From IMG/VR virus record IMGVR_UViG_3300027759_000045, positions 248,001-312,000 of that record: 64,000 nt of DNA. One strand, given 5' to 3'. The stretch is from a virus. A model generated the notes under the pieces. The model was not told where the DNA came from, did not search any database, and saw only the letters and a list, made by a program, of their open reading frames with translations. The translations under genes and the position numbers were made by a program. Of this stretch, positions 9,308 to 42,801 are shown one piece after another. Numbering within the stretch: position 1 is the stretch's first letter; each line of letters opens with the position of its first letter.

Positions 9308-9577
9308 ATGGCAGTAGATTTAGCAAGCGAAATTTGGAATGAACTCAAACGGTATGTTAACACAGTAGATCGTGCAGAAGCTGCAGAAACTGTGGTACAG
9401 ATCTTGATGGACAATGATGCAGACGTAGAAGATATCCGTGCAGCCTTCAAGGGCGATTCGGATATCAAACGTGCGCTAACCGCATATCTTGACAACGATA
9501 AAGATTATGTAGACGAAGAAGATGCCGAAGAAGACGAAGACTTTGATGACTTTGATGACAAAGACTGGGAAGATTAA
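9308..9577 (+). CDS. Small acidic protein of unknown function
   Basis: 89 aa. The N-terminal 60 residues look helical, and the last 25 are almost all Asp/Glu with aromatic residues (DFDDFDDKDWED). The start follows GTGGAGGAATAAC, a strong ribosome site placed over the uvsX stop. The tail resembles the acidic C-termini used by ssDNA-binding proteins for partner binding, and the position between UvsX and UvsY fits a recombination accessory factor, but no family was recognised. Its stop overlaps the next rSAM start by 1 nt. Confidence 0.75.
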   Translation: MAVDLASEIWNELKRYVNTVDRAEAAETVVQILMDNDADVEDIRAAFKGDSDIKRALTAYLDNDKDYVDEEDAEEDEDFDDFDDKDWED

Positions 9578-10812
9578 TGTCTTTAAAAAAATACTTCCCG
9601 ATTAACTCACAAACCAGTTGTAGGTCAAAATGGTCGTGGAGTACATTATATTTAAATAAAGGTGCTACCGCATCGTGTCATAGGGCTAGTGTTTCTAGTA
9701 TACCAGAAAATTTTGAAGACTTTCATAACACTCCTATTAAAATACAGGATAGGAGTGTTATGTTACAATCTCAATGGCCCGGCAACGGGTGTGAATATTG
9801 TCAAGATATTGAACACAGCGGAGGTATTAGTGATCGTATGTTTCAAAATCAAATTCCAAATGTATACCCTAAAGAACTTGATCAAGACAATACGTTAACT
9901 GTAGTTAATCCTGCGGTGTTAGAAGTATTTTTTTCTAACACCTGTAATCTATCATGCATTTATTGTGATGCAAAACATAGTTCATCAATTCAAGCCGAAA
10001 ATAAAAAGTTTGGAGGTGCAATACTTCCTGAATTAAACTTTGAATACACTGATAACAAATATCGCGAGCTTGTTCCAAAATTTTGGGCATGGCTTGAAAC
10101 ACATAGCCTATCCTTACAACGATTACAAATTTTAGGTGGTGAGCCCTTCTTACAACCTGATGTGTTGAAGCTGATTGAATATTTTGAACAACATCCGCAC
10201 CCAGACCTAGAGTTTAATTTGGTTACCAACCTTATGTTGCCAATCAAGGTTATAGAACCTATATTGAAAAAACTAAGAGATCTAAAACAACAAAATAAGC
10301 TGAAACGAATTGATATCCAAGTCAGTGTCGATTGCTGGGGATCCGCACAAGAATACACACGGCATGGATTTATGTTAGATATTTTTGATCGTAACATGGA
10401 GTTGTTAATCGAAATGTCTGAATTTCGAATCGGCCTATTGTCAACTATAACTTCACTGTCGATTCCCAGCATGCCCGAGTTAGCACAAAAATACAATCAA
10501 TGGTGTACAAAACAAAAAATATTTTGGTACATGCATTTGGTTCTACCTAATAACAAAAGTGTGTTTGATCCCACTATGTTTGATTACTCTGTATTTGCCT
10601 CTAGCTTAGAATCTGTGTATAATTTATTACCTAAGGAAACTTGGGATGACAAAACCACTCTTGAAAGTTTTGATGGCATTGTATCTAAACTAAAAAACAA
10701 ATGTAAAACAGACCTTATAAGACAACAAGGTCTGTTGCAATATCTTGACACCAACGATTACAGAAGAAAGACCAAATGGAAAGACATTTTTTCCTGGTTA
10801 ACAATAGGATAA
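9577..10812 (+). CDS. Radical SAM protein 2 (twitch/SPASM-like)
   Basis: 411 aa. CNLSCIYC at Cys123, Cys127, Cys130, then LGGEP as SAM-binding motif near 186. N-terminal cysteines at 15, 34 and a CEYC pair at 72-75 parallel the layout of the other rSAM proteins. The DNA is AT-richer than uvsX or uvsY on either side. It splits the uvsX-uvsY pair and is packed tightly (1-nt overlap upstream, 3 nt downstream), so it is co-transcribed with recombination genes. Substrate unknown. Confidence 0.82.
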   Translation: MSLKKYFPINSQTSCRSKWSWSTLYLNKGATASCHRASVSSIPENFEDFHNTPIKIQDRSVMLQSQWPGNGCEYCQDIEHSGGISDRMFQNQIPNVYPKELDQDNTLTVVNPAVLEVFFSNTCNLSCIYCDAKHSSSIQAENKKFGGAILPELNFEYTDNKYRELVPKFWAWLETHSLSLQRLQILGGEPFLQPDVLKLIEYFEQHPHPDLEFNLVTNLMLPIKVIEPILKKLRDLKQQNKLKRIDIQVSVDCWGSAQEYTRHGFMLDIFDRNMELLIEMSEFRIGLLSTITSLSIPSMPELAQKYNQWCTKQKIFWYMHLVLPNNKSVFDPTMFDYSVFASSLESVYNLLPKETWDDKTTLESFDGIVSKLKNKCKTDLIRQQGLLQYLDTNDYRRKTKWKDIFSWLTIG

Positions 10813-22435: not shown

Positions 22436-23896
22436 ATGAAAAGATGCACAATACAAATTAAAGATGAAGTAAACATTAAACTGGAAGGGCTTGAACTTGA
22501 CGCCAGGCGTGCATTAGTAAACACATTTAAATATGACGTTCCGGGCGCACGTTATTTGCCTGCGGTCAGGTTAGGTCGCTGGGATGGCAAGGTCAGTTAC
22601 TTTCAACTTGGTGGTAGCACTTATGTAAACTTACTACCTGATATTATTCCCATATTAGAAAAGTTCAACTATGACATTGAACTAGATGACCAACGCGAAT
22701 ATTCTACTGTGTTTGACTTTACACAGATCAAAGAAGATTCGTTTGCACATAAGGTGTGGCCCAAGACACACCCAATGGCAGGTGAACCTGTGGTGTTGCG
22801 TGACTACCAGGTTGAGATTATCAACAACTTCCTGGGCAACCCGCAATGCATACAAGAAGTGGCCACAGGCGCAGGCAAGACGCTGATGACAGCGGCATTG
22901 AGTTTAAGTATAGAACCATATGGACGTTCAATTGTTATTGTGCCCAACAAAAGTTTGGTAACGCAAACAGAAGCAGACTACAAGAACTTGGGCTTGAATG
23001 TTGGTGTGTACTTTGGTGACCGTAAAGAGCATGGCCGGACACATACCATTTGCACATGGCAAAGTTTAAATGTGCTAATGAAAAACACAAAGAACGGCGT
23101 AGCAGATGTCACTATCCAGGACTTTATTGAGGACGTGGTATGTGTAATGGTGGATGAAGTACACATGGCCAAGGCAGATGCACTTAAATCCTTGTTAACA
23201 GGCATCATGGCTAGAGTGCCAATTCGGTGGGGTCTAACAGGAACTGTGCCCAAGGAACCATTTGAGTTCCAAGCATTAAAGTGCAGTCTTGGCCCTGTTA
23301 TTAGCCAACTCAGTGCAAGTGAACTACAGGATCGTGGTGTGCTGGCACAGTGTCATGTGAACATTGTGCAGTTGGTAGACCACGCAGAGTTTTCAAATTA
23401 TCAAAGTGAGTTGAAGTTCTTGCTGGAAGAGCCAGACAGACTCACTGCCATTGCCAACTTGGTGTCGCAGGTCAATGACACCGGCAATACACTAGTATTA
23501 GTAGACCGTGTAGCAGCCGGTCATGCTTTGATTGAACGCCTGGGCGATCGAGCAGTGTTTGTATCAGGTGCAACCAAAGCAGGAGCAAGACAAGATGAAT
23601 ACGACGAAGTGGCCACCAGCACTGGCAAGATTATTGTGGCGACTTACGGTGTGGCCGCTGTGGGTATTAATATTCCAAGGATTTTTAATTTGGTTCTTCT
23701 TGAACCCGGAAAGAGCTTTGTCCGTGTTATACAGTCAATTGGGCGCGGCATTAGAAAAGCGGAAGACAAAGATCATGTAGAGATCTGGGACATAACCAGC
23801 ACATGTAAATTTGCCAAACGACACTTGACCAAACGTAAAGTATTTTATCGTGACGCAAACTATCCGTTTTCTCAGGAGAAACTAGAATGGAAATAA
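22436..23896 (+). CDS. uvsW: UvsW-like DNA/RNA helicase
   Basis: 486 aa. VATGAGKT (142-149) is motif I, VMVDEVHMA the DExH motif II, LTGT motif III, and QSIGRGIRK motif VI of superfamily 2. The N-terminal 100 residues (GRWDGKVSYF) match the substrate-gripping domain of UvsW. UvsW unwinds R-loops and branched DNA, reverses forks and switches replication from origin to recombination mode. No Shine-Dalgarno precedes the start; promoter -10 box is 6 nt away. Confidence 0.93.
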   Translation: MKRCTIQIKDEVNIKLEGLELDARRALVNTFKYDVPGARYLPAVRLGRWDGKVSYFQLGGSTYVNLLPDIIPILEKFNYDIELDDQREYSTVFDFTQIKEDSFAHKVWPKTHPMAGEPVVLRDYQVEIINNFLGNPQCIQEVATGAGKTLMTAALSLSIEPYGRSIVIVPNKSLVTQTEADYKNLGLNVGVYFGDRKEHGRTHTICTWQSLNVLMKNTKNGVADVTIQDFIEDVVCVMVDEVHMAKADALKSLLTGIMARVPIRWGLTGTVPKEPFEFQALKCSLGPVISQLSASELQDRGVLAQCHVNIVQLVDHAEFSNYQSELKFLLEEPDRLTAIANLVSQVNDTGNTLVLVDRVAAGHALIERLGDRAVFVSGATKAGARQDEYDEVATSTGKIIVATYGVAAVGINIPRIFNLVLLEPGKSFVRVIQSIGRGIRKAEDKDHVEIWDITSTCKFAKRHLTKRKVFYRDANYPFSQEKLEWK

Positions 23897-23902
23897 TTTA
23901 AA

Positions 23903-25051
23903 ATGACCCCGCTAAAATGTTTTCACTTGGATCACGGGTATTCAAGCCTGACTTCGTCGCCGTGTTGCCAAGTAGAGATTCCCGGTAATCGTTCTACTTC
24001 TGGTAACAGAATTGACAGTTTTTCGACATTGCATAAAAACAAGCATTATATCGAAATAAAACAAAGTATGGATCAAGGCATATGGCACGATCTATGCAAC
24101 ACATGTCGTGTTGTTGAAGCACGGAAAGGTGACACACTCTCGTATCGACAACATTCACTACCCAAATATCACATGCCACCCTATGATATAAATGATGGAT
24201 TAATTGATATACAGCTGGCTCCGGGCTATTTGTGCAATATTCAATGCAGGTCTTGTACTCCGGCTCTTAGCAGTAGTTGGATCAACGAAAGTAGAGATAT
24301 GCCAGTAACCCTGGCCGCTCCTGGTACACAACATTATGCCATGAAGAATGACATTAAGTTTTCGACTATAAAAGTTTTGCCGAGTCCAGTGTATGATTAT
24401 ACCAAAGACGATTGGTCATCTGTAAAATATGCAAGTTTTGTCGGAGGCGAGCCGATATATAATCCTGAATTTTATGTTCAATTAAAAAAATTGTTTAACG
24501 AAACTAACGGATCAGCTGTGATAAGTTTTGCCACAAATGGAACTATTCCATTGGACTTGACAAAGTATCCGTGGATTGCTGATTTTAAAAATATTCAAGT
24601 TAATTTCAGTATCGATTCAATTGGCAGTAGCGCAGAGTTTATTCGAACTGGAACTGTCTGGAGCAAAGTTGAAAAGAATATACAATTTTACAAATCAATG
24701 AATATTGACACTGCGTACCACATGACAAATAGTGTGTTAAATATATTAGACACAAATAGAACAATAGACTATTTAGAATCCATAAATATTTGCAGTAGCA
24801 AATTAGTAACGCATGTTATTGATCCTGTCTATCTGAATTATAGTGTATTAACCGAAGATGAAAAATTAAAAATTATAGAACGAATCCGTGGTACCAACGC
24901 TGACTATATCATCTCAGCATTGACTGATTGCGAATACAATCCAGATAATCGATCAAAATTCTTTCTGTTTATGGAGCACACAAAAAATTACCATAGTATG
25001 GATTGGAAAGATTACCTGCCGGATCTGTATAATATCATGAATGAGGCTTGA
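23903..25051 (+). CDS. Radical SAM protein 3 (twitch/SPASM-like)
   Basis: 382 aa. CNIQCRSC at Cys111, Cys115, Cys118; VGGEP about 70 residues later. N-terminal Cys6, Cys21-Cys22 and CNTC at 65-68 match the extra-cysteine layout of rSAM proteins 1, 4, 5 and 7. Starts 6 nt after uvsW. Followed by an SGNH-like gene, repeating the rSAM-SGNH order seen at 921-2787. Confidence 0.83.
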   Translation: MTPLKCFHLDHGYSSLTSSPCCQVEIPGNRSTSGNRIDSFSTLHKNKHYIEIKQSMDQGIWHDLCNTCRVVEARKGDTLSYRQHSLPKYHMPPYDINDGLIDIQLAPGYLCNIQCRSCTPALSSSWINESRDMPVTLAAPGTQHYAMKNDIKFSTIKVLPSPVYDYTKDDWSSVKYASFVGGEPIYNPEFYVQLKKLFNETNGSAVISFATNGTIPLDLTKYPWIADFKNIQVNFSIDSIGSSAEFIRTGTVWSKVEKNIQFYKSMNIDTAYHMTNSVLNILDTNRTIDYLESINICSSKLVTHVIDPVYLNYSVLTEDEKLKIIERIRGTNADYIISALTDCEYNPDNRSKFFLFMEHTKNYHSMDWKDYLPDLYNIMNEA

Positions 25052-27408: not shown

Positions 27409-28323
27409 ATGATTCAAATTGACTTTCAAGGTGGCGCACATGGAAACTTCTTAGAATTTATTTGCAATACATTGTGTGGGCTGACCGATGATCAATTGCC
27501 GTTTAATAGTGCAGGCGCATCTCATGCAAAGAAGTATACTGGAAGAAAGACTTTTTTTTCCGATCATTATTCTTTTCTTAAAAAAGAACTGGGAGAAAAA
27601 GTTATTAGTATTCAGATTGCCGAAGATGATTTATTGCCGCTTAATCAAATTAGTTTATTAAGAGCTGGCGACCATGGATATGATAATGACTATCTTGAAA
27701 TGGACACCTACAATAAACTTAATAATGATAGTTATCGTTGGGTACTAGATAACATCATTGCCAATTTCTTTAAAGGACAAATTCAAACCAGTTACAATAA
27801 CGTTAAAGATGTGTCATGGCCCGATATACACACACTTGATGATTTTATCCTGTTGCCGGAGCATATACGTAATGAGTGTATTAATGTTCATAATTTAGAA
27901 TTATTAGAACTTAACAAAGACCATCCGGATTGTCCAAGGCACGTACTCAGAGAATTTTTTCAATTAGGATTTGAAAATCCTAGCCAACAAGGGTTTATTC
28001 AACAACAACACACAATGATTAATTATGGTAATAGACAAGTTTATATTTTTCCTTTCCGTTGTTTTTATGACACAGATTTATTCCTTGATCAAATCAAACA
28101 GATTGCTCAATGGGCGGAAATACCATATACTCAACACGATAAGATAGTCAAAATCCACAGTGAATTTTTAAAACGACAACCATACAAGCACAGTAAAATT
28201 AAATGTGATGTAATGGTGCAAGATATAATATCTAATAGACCAACAGGAAGTGCTCGAGATCTATTAGAAGAAGCGTACATAAACGCACAATTAAAAAAGC
28301 ATAATCATGAGTGCAGATATTGA
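27409..28323 (+). CDS. Unknown protein, possibly sulfotransferase-like
   Basis: 304 aa. The N-terminus (IDFQGGAHGNFLEFICNTL) has a Gly-rich turn after a beta strand that could be a phosphate-binding loop like the PAPS loop of sulfotransferases; the C-terminal part (FRCFYDTDLFLDQIKQIAQW) also recalls that fold. The match is weak and no catalytic residue is certain. AT-rich compared with its neighbours, so probably an acquired gene. Confidence 0.35.
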   Translation: MIQIDFQGGAHGNFLEFICNTLCGLTDDQLPFNSAGASHAKKYTGRKTFFSDHYSFLKKELGEKVISIQIAEDDLLPLNQISLLRAGDHGYDNDYLEMDTYNKLNNDSYRWVLDNIIANFFKGQIQTSYNNVKDVSWPDIHTLDDFILLPEHIRNECINVHNLELLELNKDHPDCPRHVLREFFQLGFENPSQQGFIQQQHTMINYGNRQVYIFPFRCFYDTDLFLDQIKQIAQWAEIPYTQHDKIVKIHSEFLKRQPYKHSKIKCDVMVQDIISNRPTGSARDLLEEAYINAQLKKHNHECRY

Positions 28324-28885
28324 CATTGACTTTGCAGACCGCAGTCAACTACTTGAATTAATCCAGCACACACCTGCACGTCAAACGGTGCAAGGGCAGG
28401 CACGCAGGCACAACTCGGGTGTGTATGTAACAGACATTCCGCAGGATCCTGTGAATCGTTGTGCGGCCATCGACTACGAAGCTGCCGAACAACTGGGTTA
28501 TTTTAAAATTGACTTTTTGAACATGAGTGTTTATCAGTTGATTACCAGTCCAGAACACTATGCCACAGCAGTGGCCACAGAACCTGCTTGGTCCCAGCTG
28601 TGGCAAGAACCAGAATGGGCAAAACAACTAGCACACGTTGGCAACTATACAGACCTGCTGAGCGCAATGCGCCCGGATAGTATTCCAAGAATGGCAGCGT
28701 TTATCAGTATCATTAGGCCAGGCAAGGCACACTTGCAACGGCAGCCCTGGGACATGGTGTTTGATTCTGTGTGGGATGGTGATGAAAGTCGAGGCTACAC
28801 ATTTAAGAAAAGCCACGCAATCAGTTACGCAGCCTTGGTAGCATTACACATGAACCTGCTCAGTCCATCCGTCGCACAAGCGTAA
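28307..28885 (+). CDS. Miniature DNA polymerase III alpha (DnaE)-like protein
   Basis: 192 aa. Five blocks appear in the same order as in the DnaE catalytic core: DIDIDF at 4-9, HNSGVYVTDIP at 35-45, FKIDFLN at 66-72, IRPGKAH at 136-142 and FKKSHAISYA at 166-175. In DnaE these are DxDxDF, HAGGVVI, KFDFLG, FRPGP and FNKSHSAAYA; Asp401, Asp403 and Asp555 of E. coli correspond to Asp in the first and third blocks, which are kept here. The PHP domain, most of palm, fingers, thumb and all C-terminal domains are missing: DnaE has about 1160 residues. It may be a relict with a new binding role. Overlaps the gene before by 17 nt. Confidence 0.6.
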   Translation: MSADIDIDFADRSQLLELIQHTPARQTVQGQARRHNSGVYVTDIPQDPVNRCAAIDYEAAEQLGYFKIDFLNMSVYQLITSPEHYATAVATEPAWSQLWQEPEWAKQLAHVGNYTDLLSAMRPDSIPRMAAFISIIRPGKAHLQRQPWDMVFDSVWDGDESRGYTFKKSHAISYAALVALHMNLLSPSVAQA

Positions 28886-29237
28886 TGCTTTTGCGTTTGC
28901 CTTTTTTCAGTGCAATATCAGCAAGGCTACACACAGGACCGTGTAAGATTTCCAAGTCTTTGTTGGCAAATGTGCGTAGACAAGGACGGAATACATCCCA
29001 GTCTTTCTTTAAGAAGATATTGATGGGAATACTTCTATTGCTCTCCCACCACCAGGCATTGGCCAACTCTAGAAATCTTTGTTTCAGCACAGGGTCGTGT
29101 ATGCTGCCAAAGTCGTATATGGTGGTAACTGACACGTCTTGATTCTGCACAATGCCCACATACTCCGTGGAAGCATATACACACAGTGTAATAAAGGGGT
29201 ATTGTTCGCTGAGTTTAGTAAAGATATCATTGGCCAT
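28860..29237 (-). CDS. Late minus-strand protein, unknown
   Basis: 125 aa, no motif recognised. Trp cluster AWWWESN in the middle, basic C-terminus (KKGKRKSITLVRR). Convergent overlap of 26 nt with the DnaE-like gene. Its own promoter TATAAATA stands 6 nt before the ATG. Confidence 0.68.
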   Translation of the reverse strand: MANDIFTKLSEQYPFITLCVYASTEYVGIVQNQDVSVTTIYDFGSIHDPVLKQRFLELANAWWWESNRSIPINIFLKKDWDVFRPCLRTFANKDLEILHGPVCSLADIALKKGKRKSITLVRRMD

Positions 29238-30461: not shown

Positions 30462-31430
30462 ATGATCGACGTGTTGGCATTTTTACCAGGCAAAAGAAAA
30501 CAGTCTAGTTCTGGGTGGATTTCCTTCAACGCACCTTGTTGCGTACACACTGGCAACACACCCGATCGTCGTGGACGTGGTGGTATCAAACTGTCTGACC
30601 AGGGCTGGAGTTATCATTGTTTTAACTGTGGCTATACTGCAAGTTTTATTCTTGGACGCAATATCGGATTCAAAGCACGACGCTTGCTGGAATGGATAGG
30701 CGTTCCTGAAAACGATATCAATCAGATCAATCTTGAAAGCATGCGACATCGTAGCATGGAAGGCATGATTGAAGATCGTCAGCGTGTTTGGAATAATCTT
30801 GCACCGATTGAGTTTAACGAAGCAGAGTTGCCGCCATTTGTGGATTTTGTAACACCAGACCGATCTGAGCATTGGGCATATCTCAGGAACAGACATGTGC
30901 CAGAAGACTATCCTGTTATGGTATCGGCCGCAAACCCAACTCGTCCTAGTGTAGTGGTTCCGTTTACATACAACAATCAAGTGGTAGGTAGTACCATACG
31001 TTTCCTGGATGATCGCAATCCACGGTACATTAACGACATGCAGAAGGGCTACGTGTTTGGCATAGATCTACAGCAAGCAGGATGGCAAAATGTAATTGTG
31101 ACAGAAGGTATCTTTGACGCACTCAGTATAAGTGGTGTGGCTGTGATGCACAACGAAATCAGTGATGATCAAGCAAGACTAATACGTAGCCTAGGACGCA
31201 ATGTCGTTGTGGTCCCAGATCAAGACAAGGCAGGCGTGGCATTAATCGATCGTGCTGTGGAACTGGGATGGAGTGTAAGCATTCCGGACTGGCCACCCGG
31301 CGTTAAAGATATCAACGATGCTGTGAAACTCTGGGGCAAGTTGACAACTTTGCTAACTATTATGCAAGCAAAAGAAACCAGTAAGATCAAAATAGAACTA
31401 AGGAAACGACAACTTGTCAAACGAATATAA
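30462..31430 (+). CDS. gp61: DNA primase (gp61-like)
   Basis: 322 aa. Zinc-binding N-terminus with Cys26/Cys27, His29 and CFNC (53-56). TOPRIM domain with VIVTEGIFDAL near 210 (Glu) and VVVPDQDKAG near 250 (DxD). It makes RNA primers at the fork together with helicase gp41, whose gene follows after an inserted rSAM gene. No Shine-Dalgarno before the ATG. Confidence 0.92.
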   Translation: MIDVLAFLPGKRKQSSSGWISFNAPCCVHTGNTPDRRGRGGIKLSDQGWSYHCFNCGYTASFILGRNIGFKARRLLEWIGVPENDINQINLESMRHRSMEGMIEDRQRVWNNLAPIEFNEAELPPFVDFVTPDRSEHWAYLRNRHVPEDYPVMVSAANPTRPSVVVPFTYNNQVVGSTIRFLDDRNPRYINDMQKGYVFGIDLQQAGWQNVIVTEGIFDALSISGVAVMHNEISDDQARLIRSLGRNVVVVPDQDKAGVALIDRAVELGWSVSIPDWPPGVKDINDAVKLWGKLTTLLTIMQAKETSKIKIELRKRQLVKRI

Positions 31431-32514
31431 CAACTGGTGTCCGGAAGTTTATCGTAGTTTATATGTTGACCGGCATAATGACAATCAACTTCAAGTTGCA
31501 CCTTGTTGTCAGGCAACTATACAAACAGTGCCAGTTGAAAATTTTAATTTTAATACAAACGAGTACTTGCAGTCAATTAGGCAACAATTTGCAGATGGAA
31601 AAAAGCCACTGGCCTGTTCGAGATGCTGGCAAGATGAAAATGCTGGCAAGAAAAGTAGAAGATTAAGTGCTATAGAATTTTTTGAACTGCCAACTGAATC
31701 CGACACAGTGATATTAGAAAGTGTTGATCACAGTGCAACATGGGCATGTAATTTAGGTTGCATCATGTGTGGCCCACAGAACTCTAGCACATGGGCGACA
31801 GAACTTAATATATCACAAAAATCGTTATCGGCAATGGGTAGAAAATTTCAAAAGCAAAATAAGTTATTTGATTATTTAGATCTAACTAATGTTAAAAAAA
31901 TACATTTTAACGGCGGCGAGCCAATGCTTAACAATGATCAATTTAATATACTAAAGAGTATTGATTTATCAAATGCTTTTGTGAGTTATAACACAAACGG
32001 AACGGTGTATCCTAGTCTAGACATAATTAATTTGTGGGAAAAAACAAAATTAGTAAAATTGTTCTTTAGTGTAGACGCAACTGATACAGCATTTGAGTAT
32101 GTCAGACACCCTGGAAAATGGGATACGTTAGTTAATAATATCAACCGTATGCGTAAAGAATTACCTGGAAATATCATGTTTGGGTTTAACGTAACTGTGG
32201 GAAATTATAATGTACTTGAAATGCCACTGGTATATGAATGGTTTATGGAAAATTTATCTACAAATAGAGAAGGCGATAGTAGTGACTTTTGTTGGCAACT
32301 CGCATATAATTATAATGTAACTGATCTTTTGCCAAATATAAAACAGGAAGCAATGTCTGCACTGTCCTCAATTGATCAGTTTAGTGGACTTGTAAAAATT
32401 TTAAAATCTACAATGAATAGTCACAATGATAATTGGATACAAGGGTTGAATCAAATTGATCAGAGAAGAAACACAAGTTGGAAAAAAAGTTTGCAAATTG
32501 GAAAGTACTATTAA
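31414..32514 (+). CDS. Radical SAM protein 4 (twitch/SPASM-like)
   Basis: 366 aa from a TTG start at 31414 with AAGGAAACGACAAC before it; overlaps the primase end by 17 nt. CNLGCIMC at Cys112, Cys116, Cys119 and FNGGEP about 55 residues on. N-terminal Cys9, Cys31-Cys32 and CSRC at 68-71. Strongly AT-rich insert between primase and helicase genes, which are partners. Substrate unknown. Confidence 0.84.
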   Translation: MSNEYNNWCPEVYRSLYVDRHNDNQLQVAPCCQATIQTVPVENFNFNTNEYLQSIRQQFADGKKPLACSRCWQDENAGKKSRRLSAIEFFELPTESDTVILESVDHSATWACNLGCIMCGPQNSSTWATELNISQKSLSAMGRKFQKQNKLFDYLDLTNVKKIHFNGGEPMLNNDQFNILKSIDLSNAFVSYNTNGTVYPSLDIINLWEKTKLVKLFFSVDATDTAFEYVRHPGKWDTLVNNINRMRKELPGNIMFGFNVTVGNYNVLEMPLVYEWFMENLSTNREGDSSDFCWQLAYNYNVTDLLPNIKQEAMSALSSIDQFSGLVKILKSTMNSHNDNWIQGLNQIDQRRNTSWKKSLQIGKYY

Positions 32515-32517
32515 ACA

Positions 32518-33957
32518 ATGTTAAAAGATTATGGATTAGAAGTCCAGAGATTATTCTTAGAAATGATGTTGGAAGACGCCAGCAGTTATGTGCGTGTTCA
32601 AAACATTTATAATCCACAAAACTTTGACCGGAGCCTGCAGCCGGCGGCTGAGTTCATTAAAGAGCACACGGACAAGCATAAAACTATGCCTGACAAGTTG
32701 CAGATTAGTGCAACTACAGGAATCAAACTGCAACCTGTGCCAGATTTGAACGAAGGACACTTTGATTGGTTCATGACCGAGTTTGAAGGCTTTACCAAGC
32801 GTCAAGAACTTGAACGTGCTATTCTTAAAAGTGCAGACTTGTTAGAAAAGGGAGAGTTTGAGCCAGTTGAGAAACTGATCAAAGACGCAGTACAGATATC
32901 TCTTACAAAAGACATGGGCACAGATTACTTTGCTGATCCTGCGAGTCGTATCAACCGATACTTTAACTCAGGCGGCCAAGTAAGCACAGGATGGCCACAA
33001 CTAGACCGGCTGTTGTATGGTGGATTCAGTCGTGGTGAACTGAACATCTTTGCAGGCGGATCTGGTTCGGGTAAAAGTTTAGTAATGATGAACATTGCGT
33101 TGAACTGGCTACAGCAAGGACTTAGTGGTGTGTACGTTACACTAGAACTCAGTGAAGAACTTACCAGTTTACGTACAGATGCTATGTTGACCAATATGTC
33201 AACAAAGGATATCCGTAAAGACATTGACACAACTGAACTCAAAGTTAAACTAGTTGCTAAGAAGTCTGGCCAGTATCGTGTTAAGGCATTACCGGCGCAA
33301 AGCAACATTAACGACATCCGTAGTTATATCAAAGAAGTACAGATCCAAACAGGGATCCGAGTAGACTTCCTGATGATTGACTATTTGGACTTGCTAATGC
33401 CAGTTAGTGCTAAAGTTAGCCCCAACGACTTGTTTGTTAAAGACAAGTATGTTTCAGAAGAACTGCGTAACTTAGCCAAGGAACTGGGTGTGCTGATGGT
33501 TACTGCATCGCAGTTAAATCGTAGTGCTGTTGAAGAGATTGAATTTGACCACAGTCATATTTCAGGCGGTATCAGTAAAATTAACACAGCAGATAATGTG
33601 TTTGGTATCTTTACTTCACGTGCTATGAAAGAACGTGGCAAGTATCAGATCCAGTGTATGAAATCTCGAAGCTCGACCGGCGTTGGTCAAAAAATTGATT
33701 TGGAGTATAACATTGAAACTATGCGCATTACTGATGAAGGTGGGGACGAAGGGACAGGGTACAACCGACCCCAAAGTTCACTTATGGACTCAATCAAAGC
33801 AAAAAGCCAACTCAAGTCTGCTGACACCACAGAAGACAAATCCCCACCGTGGGAAAAAGCCACAGGAACTCCTGCTTGGGAACAGCCAGCAAAAGTAACA
33901 GGCGATGTGCAAAGTGCTAAATTAAAACAACTGCTCGGTCAGATTAAAAATACTTAA
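32518..33957 (+). CDS. gp41: Replicative DNA helicase (gp41, DnaB-like)
   Basis: 479 aa. Walker A GGSGSGKS at 180-187, Walker B FLMIDYLDLL, and the DnaB-type SQLNRSAV/HISGG region after it. N-terminal 130 residues form the primase-interacting domain. It unwinds DNA 5'-3' on the lagging strand. The C-terminal 70 residues are a polar, Pro/Lys-rich tail, longer than needed for the ring and perhaps flexible. Starts 3 nt after rSAM 4. Confidence 0.94.
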   Translation: MLKDYGLEVQRLFLEMMLEDASSYVRVQNIYNPQNFDRSLQPAAEFIKEHTDKHKTMPDKLQISATTGIKLQPVPDLNEGHFDWFMTEFEGFTKRQELERAILKSADLLEKGEFEPVEKLIKDAVQISLTKDMGTDYFADPASRINRYFNSGGQVSTGWPQLDRLLYGGFSRGELNIFAGGSGSGKSLVMMNIALNWLQQGLSGVYVTLELSEELTSLRTDAMLTNMSTKDIRKDIDTTELKVKLVAKKSGQYRVKALPAQSNINDIRSYIKEVQIQTGIRVDFLMIDYLDLLMPVSAKVSPNDLFVKDKYVSEELRNLAKELGVLMVTASQLNRSAVEEIEFDHSHISGGISKINTADNVFGIFTSRAMKERGKYQIQCMKSRSSTGVGQKIDLEYNIETMRITDEGGDEGTGYNRPQSSLMDSIKAKSQLKSADTTEDKSPPWEKATGTPAWEQPAKVTGDVQSAKLKQLLGQIKNT

Positions 33958-33961
33958 GATA

Positions 33962-35035
33962 TTAACATTCTATTAGCATATTATGTAATTCAGGCAAATA
34001 ATCTTTCATCTGAATTTTTTTAGATGTATCTTGTATTTTAATTTGTTCAAGCATCATTTGAAAATTTTGTTGATCTTGGTTGGTGTGTATTGGTCCTAAG
34101 AAAGTATTATAATCAACTGCAGATAATTGACTTTTTAATAATTTCTTAATTGATTCTGACAGTGCTCTAGGCTGTAACCAACTTGGATTATATACCGGGC
34201 TTACCGAGTACACTATATTATTTTCATTAAACCATTTGATGGTTTTGTTATGATATAAAATATTTAAATTGCTCAATGTGTAATTTGAACTAATATTGTC
34301 AGTTAATTCTCGAAAAAATGTTAGATTGTTAGTAAGATCTGTCCAGTCAAGTGGATATCTCATGTATTCAAATACAGATTCTATTCCGTCGATGCTGACA
34401 GAAAAATTAAGATTCTTAAATTTTGATAAGACTTGTTTTTGCCTGGAAGTTAATTCTACACTGCCGTTAGTTACTATACTCAAAAATACTTCAGTATTTC
34501 CCAATTCAACAAGATATTTTAATAACTCAAAATTTTTCTTTTCATACAAAGGTTCACCGCCGATTAGACTTAATATTTTAAGTTCTTTAAAATTAACTTT
34601 TTCTTTTATCTTGTCTATATCAACAAATTTATTTGAGTTTGGCGGAATATCTAAATCAATGCGCTTGGCCAACTGTGCCCAACTGCTACTACAGTTAGGG
34701 CTACAGCTTATACAAGTTGCATTACAAGTATTACTGGTAAACAATTTGAGAATTAAGATATCATTTAATTTGCCGTTGGTTGCATCTTGTTTTATAGATT
34801 CTAGATCCCTATCCCAATAAAAATCTAATGCACTATTTTTTACTTGTCGATCACTTTTTGATCCATATTCTTCAAGATTCCAACATTTTTGACACGCCGA
34901 ACTTTTAACTCCTGATAACAAGTCTGATTTAATTTGATCAATGTTGTAATTTCGAGGTAGTAAACAGCAATGTGTTTCTTGGCCATTCCAAACTACTTCT
35001 TTTCCTACCCAGGGTAAAACACAAAATGTATCCAT
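33962..35035 (-). CDS. Radical SAM protein 5 (twitch/SPASM-like), antisense
   Basis: 357 aa. CNATCISC at Cys104, Cys108, Cys111, followed by IGGEP. N-terminal Cys5 in FCVLPW, Cys23-Cys24 and CQKC at 48-51. The only rSAM gene on the minus strand; it ends 4 nt after the helicase stop, convergent. Very AT-rich: a hand count of 34021-34080 gives 15 G+C in 60. Its own late box lies 4 nt before the ATG, so it is timed apart from the helicase. Confidence 0.84.
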   Translation of the reverse strand: MDTFCVLPWVGKEVVWNGQETHCCLLPRNYNIDQIKSDLLSGVKSSACQKCWNLEEYGSKSDRQVKNSALDFYWDRDLESIKQDATNGKLNDILILKLFTSNTCNATCISCSPNCSSSWAQLAKRIDLDIPPNSNKFVDIDKIKEKVNFKELKILSLIGGEPLYEKKNFELLKYLVELGNTEVFLSIVTNGSVELTSRQKQVLSKFKNLNFSVSIDGIESVFEYMRYPLDWTDLTNNLTFFRELTDNISSNYTLSNLNILYHNKTIKWFNENNIVYSVSPVYNPSWLQPRALSESIKKLLKSQLSAVDYNTFLGPIHTNQDQQNFQMMLEQIKIQDTSKKIQMKDYLPELHNMLIEC

Positions 35036-41907: not shown

Positions 41908-42801
41908 ATGACACAAAAAATCTTGATTGACAAGTTAGAATTCTACATCACCAACGTGTGTAACTTAACTTGCAACGGCTGTAATCGCTACAACAATTAT
42001 AAATTCAGCGGATGGCAAAGTTGGGCAGAAGCCGAACCTGTTCTCACTCGCTGGGCAGAAAAAATAGACATACGACATCCTGTAATCCTTGGTGGCGAGC
42101 CACTGCTTAATCCTGACATTGTTAAATGGATTAACGGTATTAGGCAATTGTGGCCCAAGCATTCGGGAGTTCAAGTGCAAAGCAACGGAACACGCATCGA
42201 CTGCGTTAAAGGGTTAGATGAGGCTCTTAATCCTAAAGAGGGAAACTGGTTGGGCATTAGTATACACAATCCCAATGACCGAGAAGAAATATTTGCTCGT
42301 GTACGAAACTTCTTAGGACCTACTGTAATAGAAACACAACGCAAAGATGATCCAATTGGTAGCAATTATCAATTTATTAATGATAAAAAATTAACAATCC
42401 ACGCCTGGATGAGCAACAAGTTTGTTCAAAGCAATATTATTGAACTTCCAGACAACAAGTACACACTGTATCAGAGTGATCCTACACGGGCACACGAAAA
42501 CTGTACCTTCCGTAGATTTAAAAACTATCACATGATCAATGGGAAAATCTACAAGTGCGGTCCAGCCGCTCTAATGCCCGAATTTGATGATCAATACCAT
42601 TTTGAAATAAGCGATGAGGATCGTGCTATGCTACACAGCTATCGACCGTTGACCATTGATGAGTTTGATCTACGTGGCAAAGAGTTTATTGACACGATTG
42701 ATAACCAAATTGATCAATGCAAGTTTTGCCCAGAATCATACGAATACAAACCCATCACATTCAGTGATCGTAAAAAACCCTGGATAAAAGAACCAAAATG
42801 A
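41908..42801 (+). CDS. Radical SAM protein 6 (short, C-terminal Cys cluster)
   Basis: 297 aa. CNLTCNGC at Cys18, Cys22, Cys25 lies at the N-terminus, without the Cys-rich extension of the other six. LGGEPLLNP follows near 60. C-terminal cysteines (HENC, YKCG, CKFC) fit a SPASM/twitch auxiliary cluster. So it is the most canonical rSAM enzyme of the set, similar in build to peptide- or sugar-modifying ones. Opens the iron-sulfur island. Confidence 0.85.
   Translation: MTQKILIDKLEFYITNVCNLTCNGCNRYNNYKFSGWQSWAEAEPVLTRWAEKIDIRHPVILGGEPLLNPDIVKWINGIRQLWPKHSGVQVQSNGTRIDCVKGLDEALNPKEGNWLGISIHNPNDREEIFARVRNFLGPTVIETQRKDDPIGSNYQFINDKKLTIHAWMSNKFVQSNIIELPDNKYTLYQSDPTRAHENCTFRRFKNYHMINGKIYKCGPAALMPEFDDQYHFEISDEDRAMLHSYRPLTIDEFDLRGKEFIDTIDNQIDQCKFCPESYEYKPITFSDRKKPWIKEPK

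Follow-up and report, generated by a model that had tools for sequence, protein, structure and literature searches.

A separately encoded gene of a large phage as the probable C-terminal half of a split minimal DNA polymerase III alpha

The window analysed here is a stretch of 64,000 nucleotides, positions 248,001 to 312,000 of the 346,856-base IMG/VR virus record IMGVR_UViG_3300027759_000045. The open reading frame (ORF) at 28307-28885 on its plus strand, called B in the following, most probably encodes the C-terminal subunit of a minimal DNA polymerase of the C family that consists of two subunits and is found in large phages. Together with its partner A, which is encoded elsewhere in the same record, it is likely to rebuild one polymerase active site with, as its likeliest task, an auxiliary job in the phage. 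The evidence comes from homology in sequence and predicted fold, a conserved break, conserved catalytic residues, purifying selection and the co-occurrence of both genes.

The window gene and its catalytic blocks

B runs from ATG to TAA and encodes 192 amino acids with zero internal stops, and the opposite strand contains only short fragments. The protein matches PHROG 11778 ("DNA polymerase", 197 positions) from end to end, with residues 3-186 aligned (E 3.9e-52), and more weakly PHROG 405, the full-length phage DnaE (E 1.2e-7). The full-length match to the first family in combination with the match to the second indicates that the DnaE-type blocks of B are not due to chance. The initial annotation, made from the DNA letters alone, had described five polymerase III (Pol III) alpha motifs in DnaE order in this gene. 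All five were found in that order, as listed here with their equivalents in DnaE or in the alpha subunit of E. coli:

28307..28885, plus strand: B, 192 amino acids, probably the C-terminal part of the catalytic core of a split minimal Pol III alpha (DnaE-like); assigned from PHROG, relatives and the AlphaFold model
28316..28333, plus strand: DIDIDF block, residues 4-9; D4, D6 and D8 correspond to E. coli D401, D403 and D405 and are invariant in both a 12-sequence deep and a 52-sequence alignment
28409..28441, plus strand: HNSGVYVTDIP block, residues 35-45, the HAxGxVV of DnaE; H35 and G38 invariant, aligned to full-length phage DnaE by hhalign
28502..28522, plus strand: FKIDFLN block, residues 66-72; K67 and D69 are the counterparts of K553 and D555 in E. 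coli; K67, D69 and L71 invariant, aligned to E. coli alpha 540-560
28712..28732, plus strand: IRPGKAH block, residues 136-142, the RPGP of DnaE; I136, R137, P138 and K140 invariant, aligned to E. coli alpha 614-642
28802..28831, plus strand: FKKSHAISYA block, residues 166-175; H170 is the counterpart of His760, the steric gate in E. coli alpha; H170 and Y174 invariant, aligned to E. coli alpha 739-767

The deep alignment of 12 B sequences reaches down to Alishewanella phage Slicko01 (29% identity) and Stenotrophomonas phage RAS14 (27%). D4, D6, D8, H35, G38, K67, D69, R137, P138, K140, H170 and Y174 do not vary in it, so that the catalytic-type aspartates pointed out in the initial annotation (D4, D6 and D69, with D8 beside them) are indeed kept. 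In E. coli alpha, D401, D403 and D555 are absolutely conserved across the whole C family, D405 is conserved in DnaE and replaced by Asn in PolC (PMC3919608), and H760 is the proposed steric gate (PMC8485763). The GxGRGS block is not part of B and is found in A.

A Pfam scan of the window ORF gave zero matches, and Pfam alone would therefore miss B. Searched against the PDB, a profile of 52 B homologues returned only Pol III alpha chains, with a weak best E-value of 0.011, and four collinear blocks at E. coli alpha 403-424, 540-560, 614-642 and 739-767. Multicystatin, a PDB match of a single-sequence phmmer search with B, was dropped as spurious since Pol III alpha was all that the 52-sequence profile returned. 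The comparison with DnaE at profile level, which had been suggested as a check, gave E 2e-5 against full-length phage DnaE (hhalign).

The AlphaFold model of B, based on 47 sequences, has a mean predicted local distance difference test score (pLDDT) of 79.8. The 13 best PDB matches of this model found by Foldseek are all Pol III alpha, with Taq alpha at the top (E 2.8e-4). The predicted fold is thus related to Pol III alpha, B being a palm/fingers piece derived from DnaE, and the homologues keep the aspartates, which are the two points on which the initial annotation had made its proposal depend.

Using tblastn with B, 103 phage records were matched, 89 of them over at least 80% of the ORF. 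The good matches have 26-43% identity and mostly belong to jumbo phages; the hosts of the matched phages include Enterobacteriaceae, Pseudomonas, rhizobia and others. In IMG/VR, at least 586 stretches encode a relative of B. Within close relatives the ratio of nonsynonymous to synonymous substitution rates (dN/dS) is 0.06-0.13, indicating strong purifying selection and bearing out the earlier statement that B is not a degraded pseudogene. In other phages B is usually annotated as hypothetical or even as a membrane protein, and such labels let its pairing with A go unnoticed.

A distant partner gene and a conserved break point

Half A was found by searching the same 346,856-base record with the Pol III alpha core model (Pfam: PF07733). 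Both PF07733 and the A alignment match at 27,960-28,472 of the record, and the gene itself spans 27,960-28,469, outside the window and ~248 kb from B. It encodes 169 amino acids with the GxGRGS block and the C-terminal end ...GVGRGSSVASYVLYKLQVHRIDSMYYNLDVEEFLR-stop. A matches PHROG 11127 ("DNA polymerase") over its full length (E 1.2e-40) and full-length phage DnaE in hhalign (E 1e-6), and the alignment of the A-family profile with E. coli Pol III alpha spans residues 323-393, where it ends. G136, G138, R139, G140 and S141 are invariant in 57 A sequences. The model of A, which was built from a close homologue (L098), has a mean pLDDT of 84.3, and its 8 best PDB matches in Foldseek are all Pol III alpha (probabilities 0.54-0.99, E >0.05). 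A "truncated" alpha subunit of 172 amino acids was noticed earlier by the authors of the CBB genome (PMC5259590); by its size and annotation this protein is half A.

Because A holds a part of the palm that is absent from B, the earlier statement that 80 percent of DnaE is missing fits the ORF but not the genome, in which this part is a separate gene. For the same reason B is not the self-contained miniature that had been proposed, as the nucleotide-binding half of the palm is encoded by A.

The two proteins adjoin each other on the DnaE sequence. B opens with MSADIDIDF, which is the next DnaE block after the end of A (MPDFDVDF, with D401 and D403). The distance from the G of GVGRGS to the end of the protein is exactly 35 residues in all 80 IMG/VR homologues of A, which terminate in EF(L/I)(R/K)-stop, and in 80 out of 80 IMG/VR homologues of B the D-x-D-x-D motif is positioned at residue 4, after MSA or MRA. 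The B N-terminus is slightly longer in five phage isolates, with an extension of at most ~20 residues. In each of the 7 phage genomes tested there is a single PF07733 match, which covers only the first ~98 model positions, and the remainder is encoded elsewhere. With A stopping at EF(L/I)(R/K) and B starting with M-(S/R)-A-D-x-D, the break leaves no space for intein halves. Judged from the sequences, the full set of catalytic residues is divided, so that neither half is complete and A and B together are: A carries the GxGRGS residues and B the Asp, Lys and His residues, and the site would therefore be complete only in the pair.

Every IMG/VR record of 290 kb or more that was tested (10 out of 10) contains both halves, and so does each of the 7 isolate genomes examined. 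The records without one of the halves are 130-262 kb long and are probably fragments. Alishewanella phage Slicko01 (L195, 141,431 bp) has both halves ~11 kb apart; as its genome is below the 200-kb jumbo limit, the split system is not confined to jumbo phages.

Missing polymerase parts and genomic setting

A and B have 361 amino acids in total, which leaves no space for the C-terminal domains of DnaE, and B contains nothing equivalent to the clamp-binding and tau-binding regions of DnaE. No match to the PHP domain was found in the searched genome of the window phage. The fingers module (Pfam: PF17657) is absent as a third separate piece from 19 of the 20 records, including this genome. The match in the G002 phage was rejected as a third piece since it belongs to a different, unsplit DnaE-like protein. 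Besides the split A and B, this phage encodes that protein of 557 amino acids (L194:730-2403, minus strand), which starts near the palm, lacks PHP and has its best match in PHROG 405 (E 9e-60). A DnaQ/epsilon-like exonuclease was considered as an obligate partner of the pair, but no more than 6 of 15 records contain one, the genome of the window phage not among them, and it is thus not a fixed component. In Bacillus phage KLEB27-3 (L208:2786-7156) a full-length DnaE is annotated as two coding sequences with an HNH endonuclease ORF between them, an interruption which is probably of the intron type and unrelated to the A/B split.

A family B DNA polymerase was found in 7 out of 7 genomes tested. 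That of the window phage is an 888-amino-acid frame with a match to Pfam PF00136 at record position 73,888.

The gene order in the window is single-strand binding protein, UvsX, UvsW-like helicase, B, a convergent small ORF, a structural-type protein, DnaG-type primase and DnaB-like helicase. The following of these genes were annotated individually:

22436..23896, plus strand: UvsW-like helicase, on the upstream side of B within one replication neighbourhood (PHROG 16, E 1.7e-72)
28860..29237, minus strand: conserved small ORF of unknown function, convergent with B and overlapping its 3' end (PHROG 11637)
30462..31430, plus strand: DnaG-type primase, downstream (PHROG 47, E 2.5e-34)
32518..33957, plus strand: DnaB-like replicative helicase, downstream (PHROG 19, E 8.3e-71)

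A small minus-strand gene convergent to B, usually with overlapping 3' ends, is also found in phages 121Q, Paride, Phosso, Atu_ph07, GAP32 and Slicko01. The order of UvsW-type helicase, B, convergent small ORF and primase/helicase is shared by 121Q, Paride, Phosso and GAP32, and Atu_ph07 is partially annotated in this region. The neighbours of A in 121Q and Paride include a clamp loader. Directly upstream of B in the window, an ORF of 304 amino acids (27409-28323) overlaps the start of B and has no PHROG match; other phages carry different genes at this position.

Six further ORFs of the window have radical SAM matches, namely 921-2057, 9577-10812, 23903-25051, 31414-32514, 33962-35035 (minus strand) and 41908-42801. 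One of them also matches SPASM, some of the matches are below the curated cut-off, and the density is unusual for 64 kb of phage DNA. A NifU/IscU-type scaffold at 43406-43798 (Pfam: PF01592, E 1.8e-54) adjoins an A-type iron-sulfur (Fe-S) carrier at 43782-44102 (Pfam: PF01521, E 1.2e-18), and this phage Fe-S assembly pair could supply the radical SAM proteins.

Proposed mechanism, alternatives and known systems

We infer from the observations above that A and B associate physically, that the complex is active as a polymerase and that it has a specific role. A would contribute the GxGRGS loop, which binds the nucleotide phosphates, and the helices that lead up to the palm. The contribution of B would be the strands with the metal-binding aspartates (D4/D6 and D69), K67 as the contact to the deoxynucleoside triphosphate (dNTP), the RPG block and, on a shortened fingers helix, the steric-gate H170. 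The two proteins would bind each other, most likely unspliced, as an intein is lacking and the ends of both halves lie no more than a few residues from the break. They would form a single active site in which nucleotides are joined to a primer. The likeliest role would be an auxiliary one, either primer extension, gap filling, or repair synthesis of the phage genome on the lagging strand or in recombination, given that the family B replicase is constant and that B lies between the genes of the UvsW-type helicase and the primase/helicase. The lack of a thumb, a PHP domain and clamp-binding regions suggests low processivity, which would fit short synthesis beside the family B replicase. More speculatively, and with rather less than an even chance, A and B may be a functional polymerase or nucleotidyltransferase that works unspliced from distant genes, is the smallest C-family enzyme and, being without thumb and clamp contact, has an activity unlike that of DnaE, such as primer synthesis, template-independent addition or gap-limited synthesis; in this reading the joining of the two halves could in itself act as a switch.

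Several points weigh against a two-subunit polymerase. The thumb, which would be expected between B residues 12 and 35, the PHP domain and the PF17657 fingers are missing, so that the grip on the DNA and processivity are unexplained. The similarity to solved structures is weak in sequence (best E 0.008-0.011), the TM-scores in Foldseek have moderate values (0.3-0.47), which is to be expected when fragments of a domain are compared, and the Foldseek E-values of A exceed 0.05. Moreover, the genes of A and B are distant and in different neighbourhoods, a layout which does not imply co-expression, and the co-occurrence sample was picked for the presence of one half, which limits the strength of that test. 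The literature searched, in which few subscription journals were covered, contained no biochemical or genetic data on the split polymerase and no experimental follow-up.

It is unlikely that A and B together are a DnaE-derived structural or regulatory factor, for example a DNA-bound accessory of the clamp loader or primase, which has kept the fold and lost polymerisation. Such a factor would agree with the loss of the thumb, the PHP domain, clamp binding and most of the fingers and with the presence of a full family B replicase. However, the equivalents of the metal-binding Asp, the dNTP-contacting Lys, GxGRGS and the steric-gate His are invariant down to 27% identity, which would be unexpected if catalysis was lost. 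Considerably less probable is that B acts alone as a decoy, a poison or a tiny nucleotidyltransferase, for instance by binding the host clamp or tau or by inhibiting host DnaE, as had been suggested in the initial annotation. B is short, separately encoded and without a partner in the same operon, but every large genome tested has a partner with an exactly complementary break, and a decoy would leave the co-conservation of A unexplained. Neither the invariant metal ligands and steric-gate His nor a co-inherited GxGRGS partner would be needed for deceiving host DnaE or its clamp, for which B also lacks the clamp- and tau-binding regions noted above, and the decoy and poison proposals are thus neither supported nor needed. 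The term nucleotidyltransferase could at most apply to the complex of both proteins.

We give very little credence to a hidden split intein that joins the halves post-translationally into one polypeptide, although the products of a split gene are known to be joined in this way in the case of cyanobacterial DnaE. Inteins do occur in the family B polymerases of these phages (PMC6892783), but metagenomic A proteins end 0-1 residue past EFL(R/K), B starts 3 residues before DxDxD, and the ~20 residues quoted above are the upper limit of the extensions in isolates. That the halves are the decaying remnant of an intact DnaE, a pseudogene split by mutation, is the least credible explanation. Large parts of DnaE are missing, as this would predict, but it is refuted by the signal of purifying selection and further opposed by the wide occurrence of B, with its 103 matched phage records and at least 586 IMG/VR stretches, and by a break point that is the same throughout. 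The two-subunit polymerase is thus the reading that we prefer. It is unusual for the active site of a polymerase to be shared by two proteins that are encoded freely; the present one is widespread. The pair offers a small, tractable test of what a C-family polymerase minimally needs and of why these phages keep it beside a family B replicase.

Compared with bacterial Pol III alpha (DnaE; PolC), A and B share the collinear catalytic blocks and the matching predicted fold, and D8 corresponds to the DnaE-specific Asp (D405). In contrast to the ~1160 amino acids of the bacterial protein, the phage proteins are two chains with 361 amino acids and are without PHP, thumb, full fingers, HhH, clamp-binding motif, OB and tau-binding domain. 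The class is therefore the described minimal split form and not a full DnaE. In cyanobacteria, the split DnaE is likewise encoded by two distant genes, whose products are spliced by a split intein to the full-length protein. Unlike these, the phage A and B have no intein residues and their break is elsewhere, inside the palm.

A split minimal DNA polymerase III alpha was described by Iyer et al. 2021 (Viruses 13:63, PMC7824862) in group 2.2 jumbo phages, which have a family B polymerase and lack other Pol III domains, and its authors, who came independently to the interpretation preferred here, proposed that the halves together make up an enzyme serving one strand or repair. The window phage has this system in every point tested, namely a separate small C-terminal half (metal- and template-binding), a distant N-terminal half (NTP-binding), a family B polymerase and no PHP or PF17657, and nothing essential differs. 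The entries of PHROG 11778 (B) and PHROG 11127 (A), as returned, do not call the two families halves of one enzyme. New compared with Iyer et al. 2021 are the residue-exact conservation of the break, the sharing of the catalytic residues between the halves, the invariance of the steric-gate His and the estimate of selection, as well as the hundreds of metagenomic members and the presence in 141-kb Alishewanella phages below the jumbo limit.
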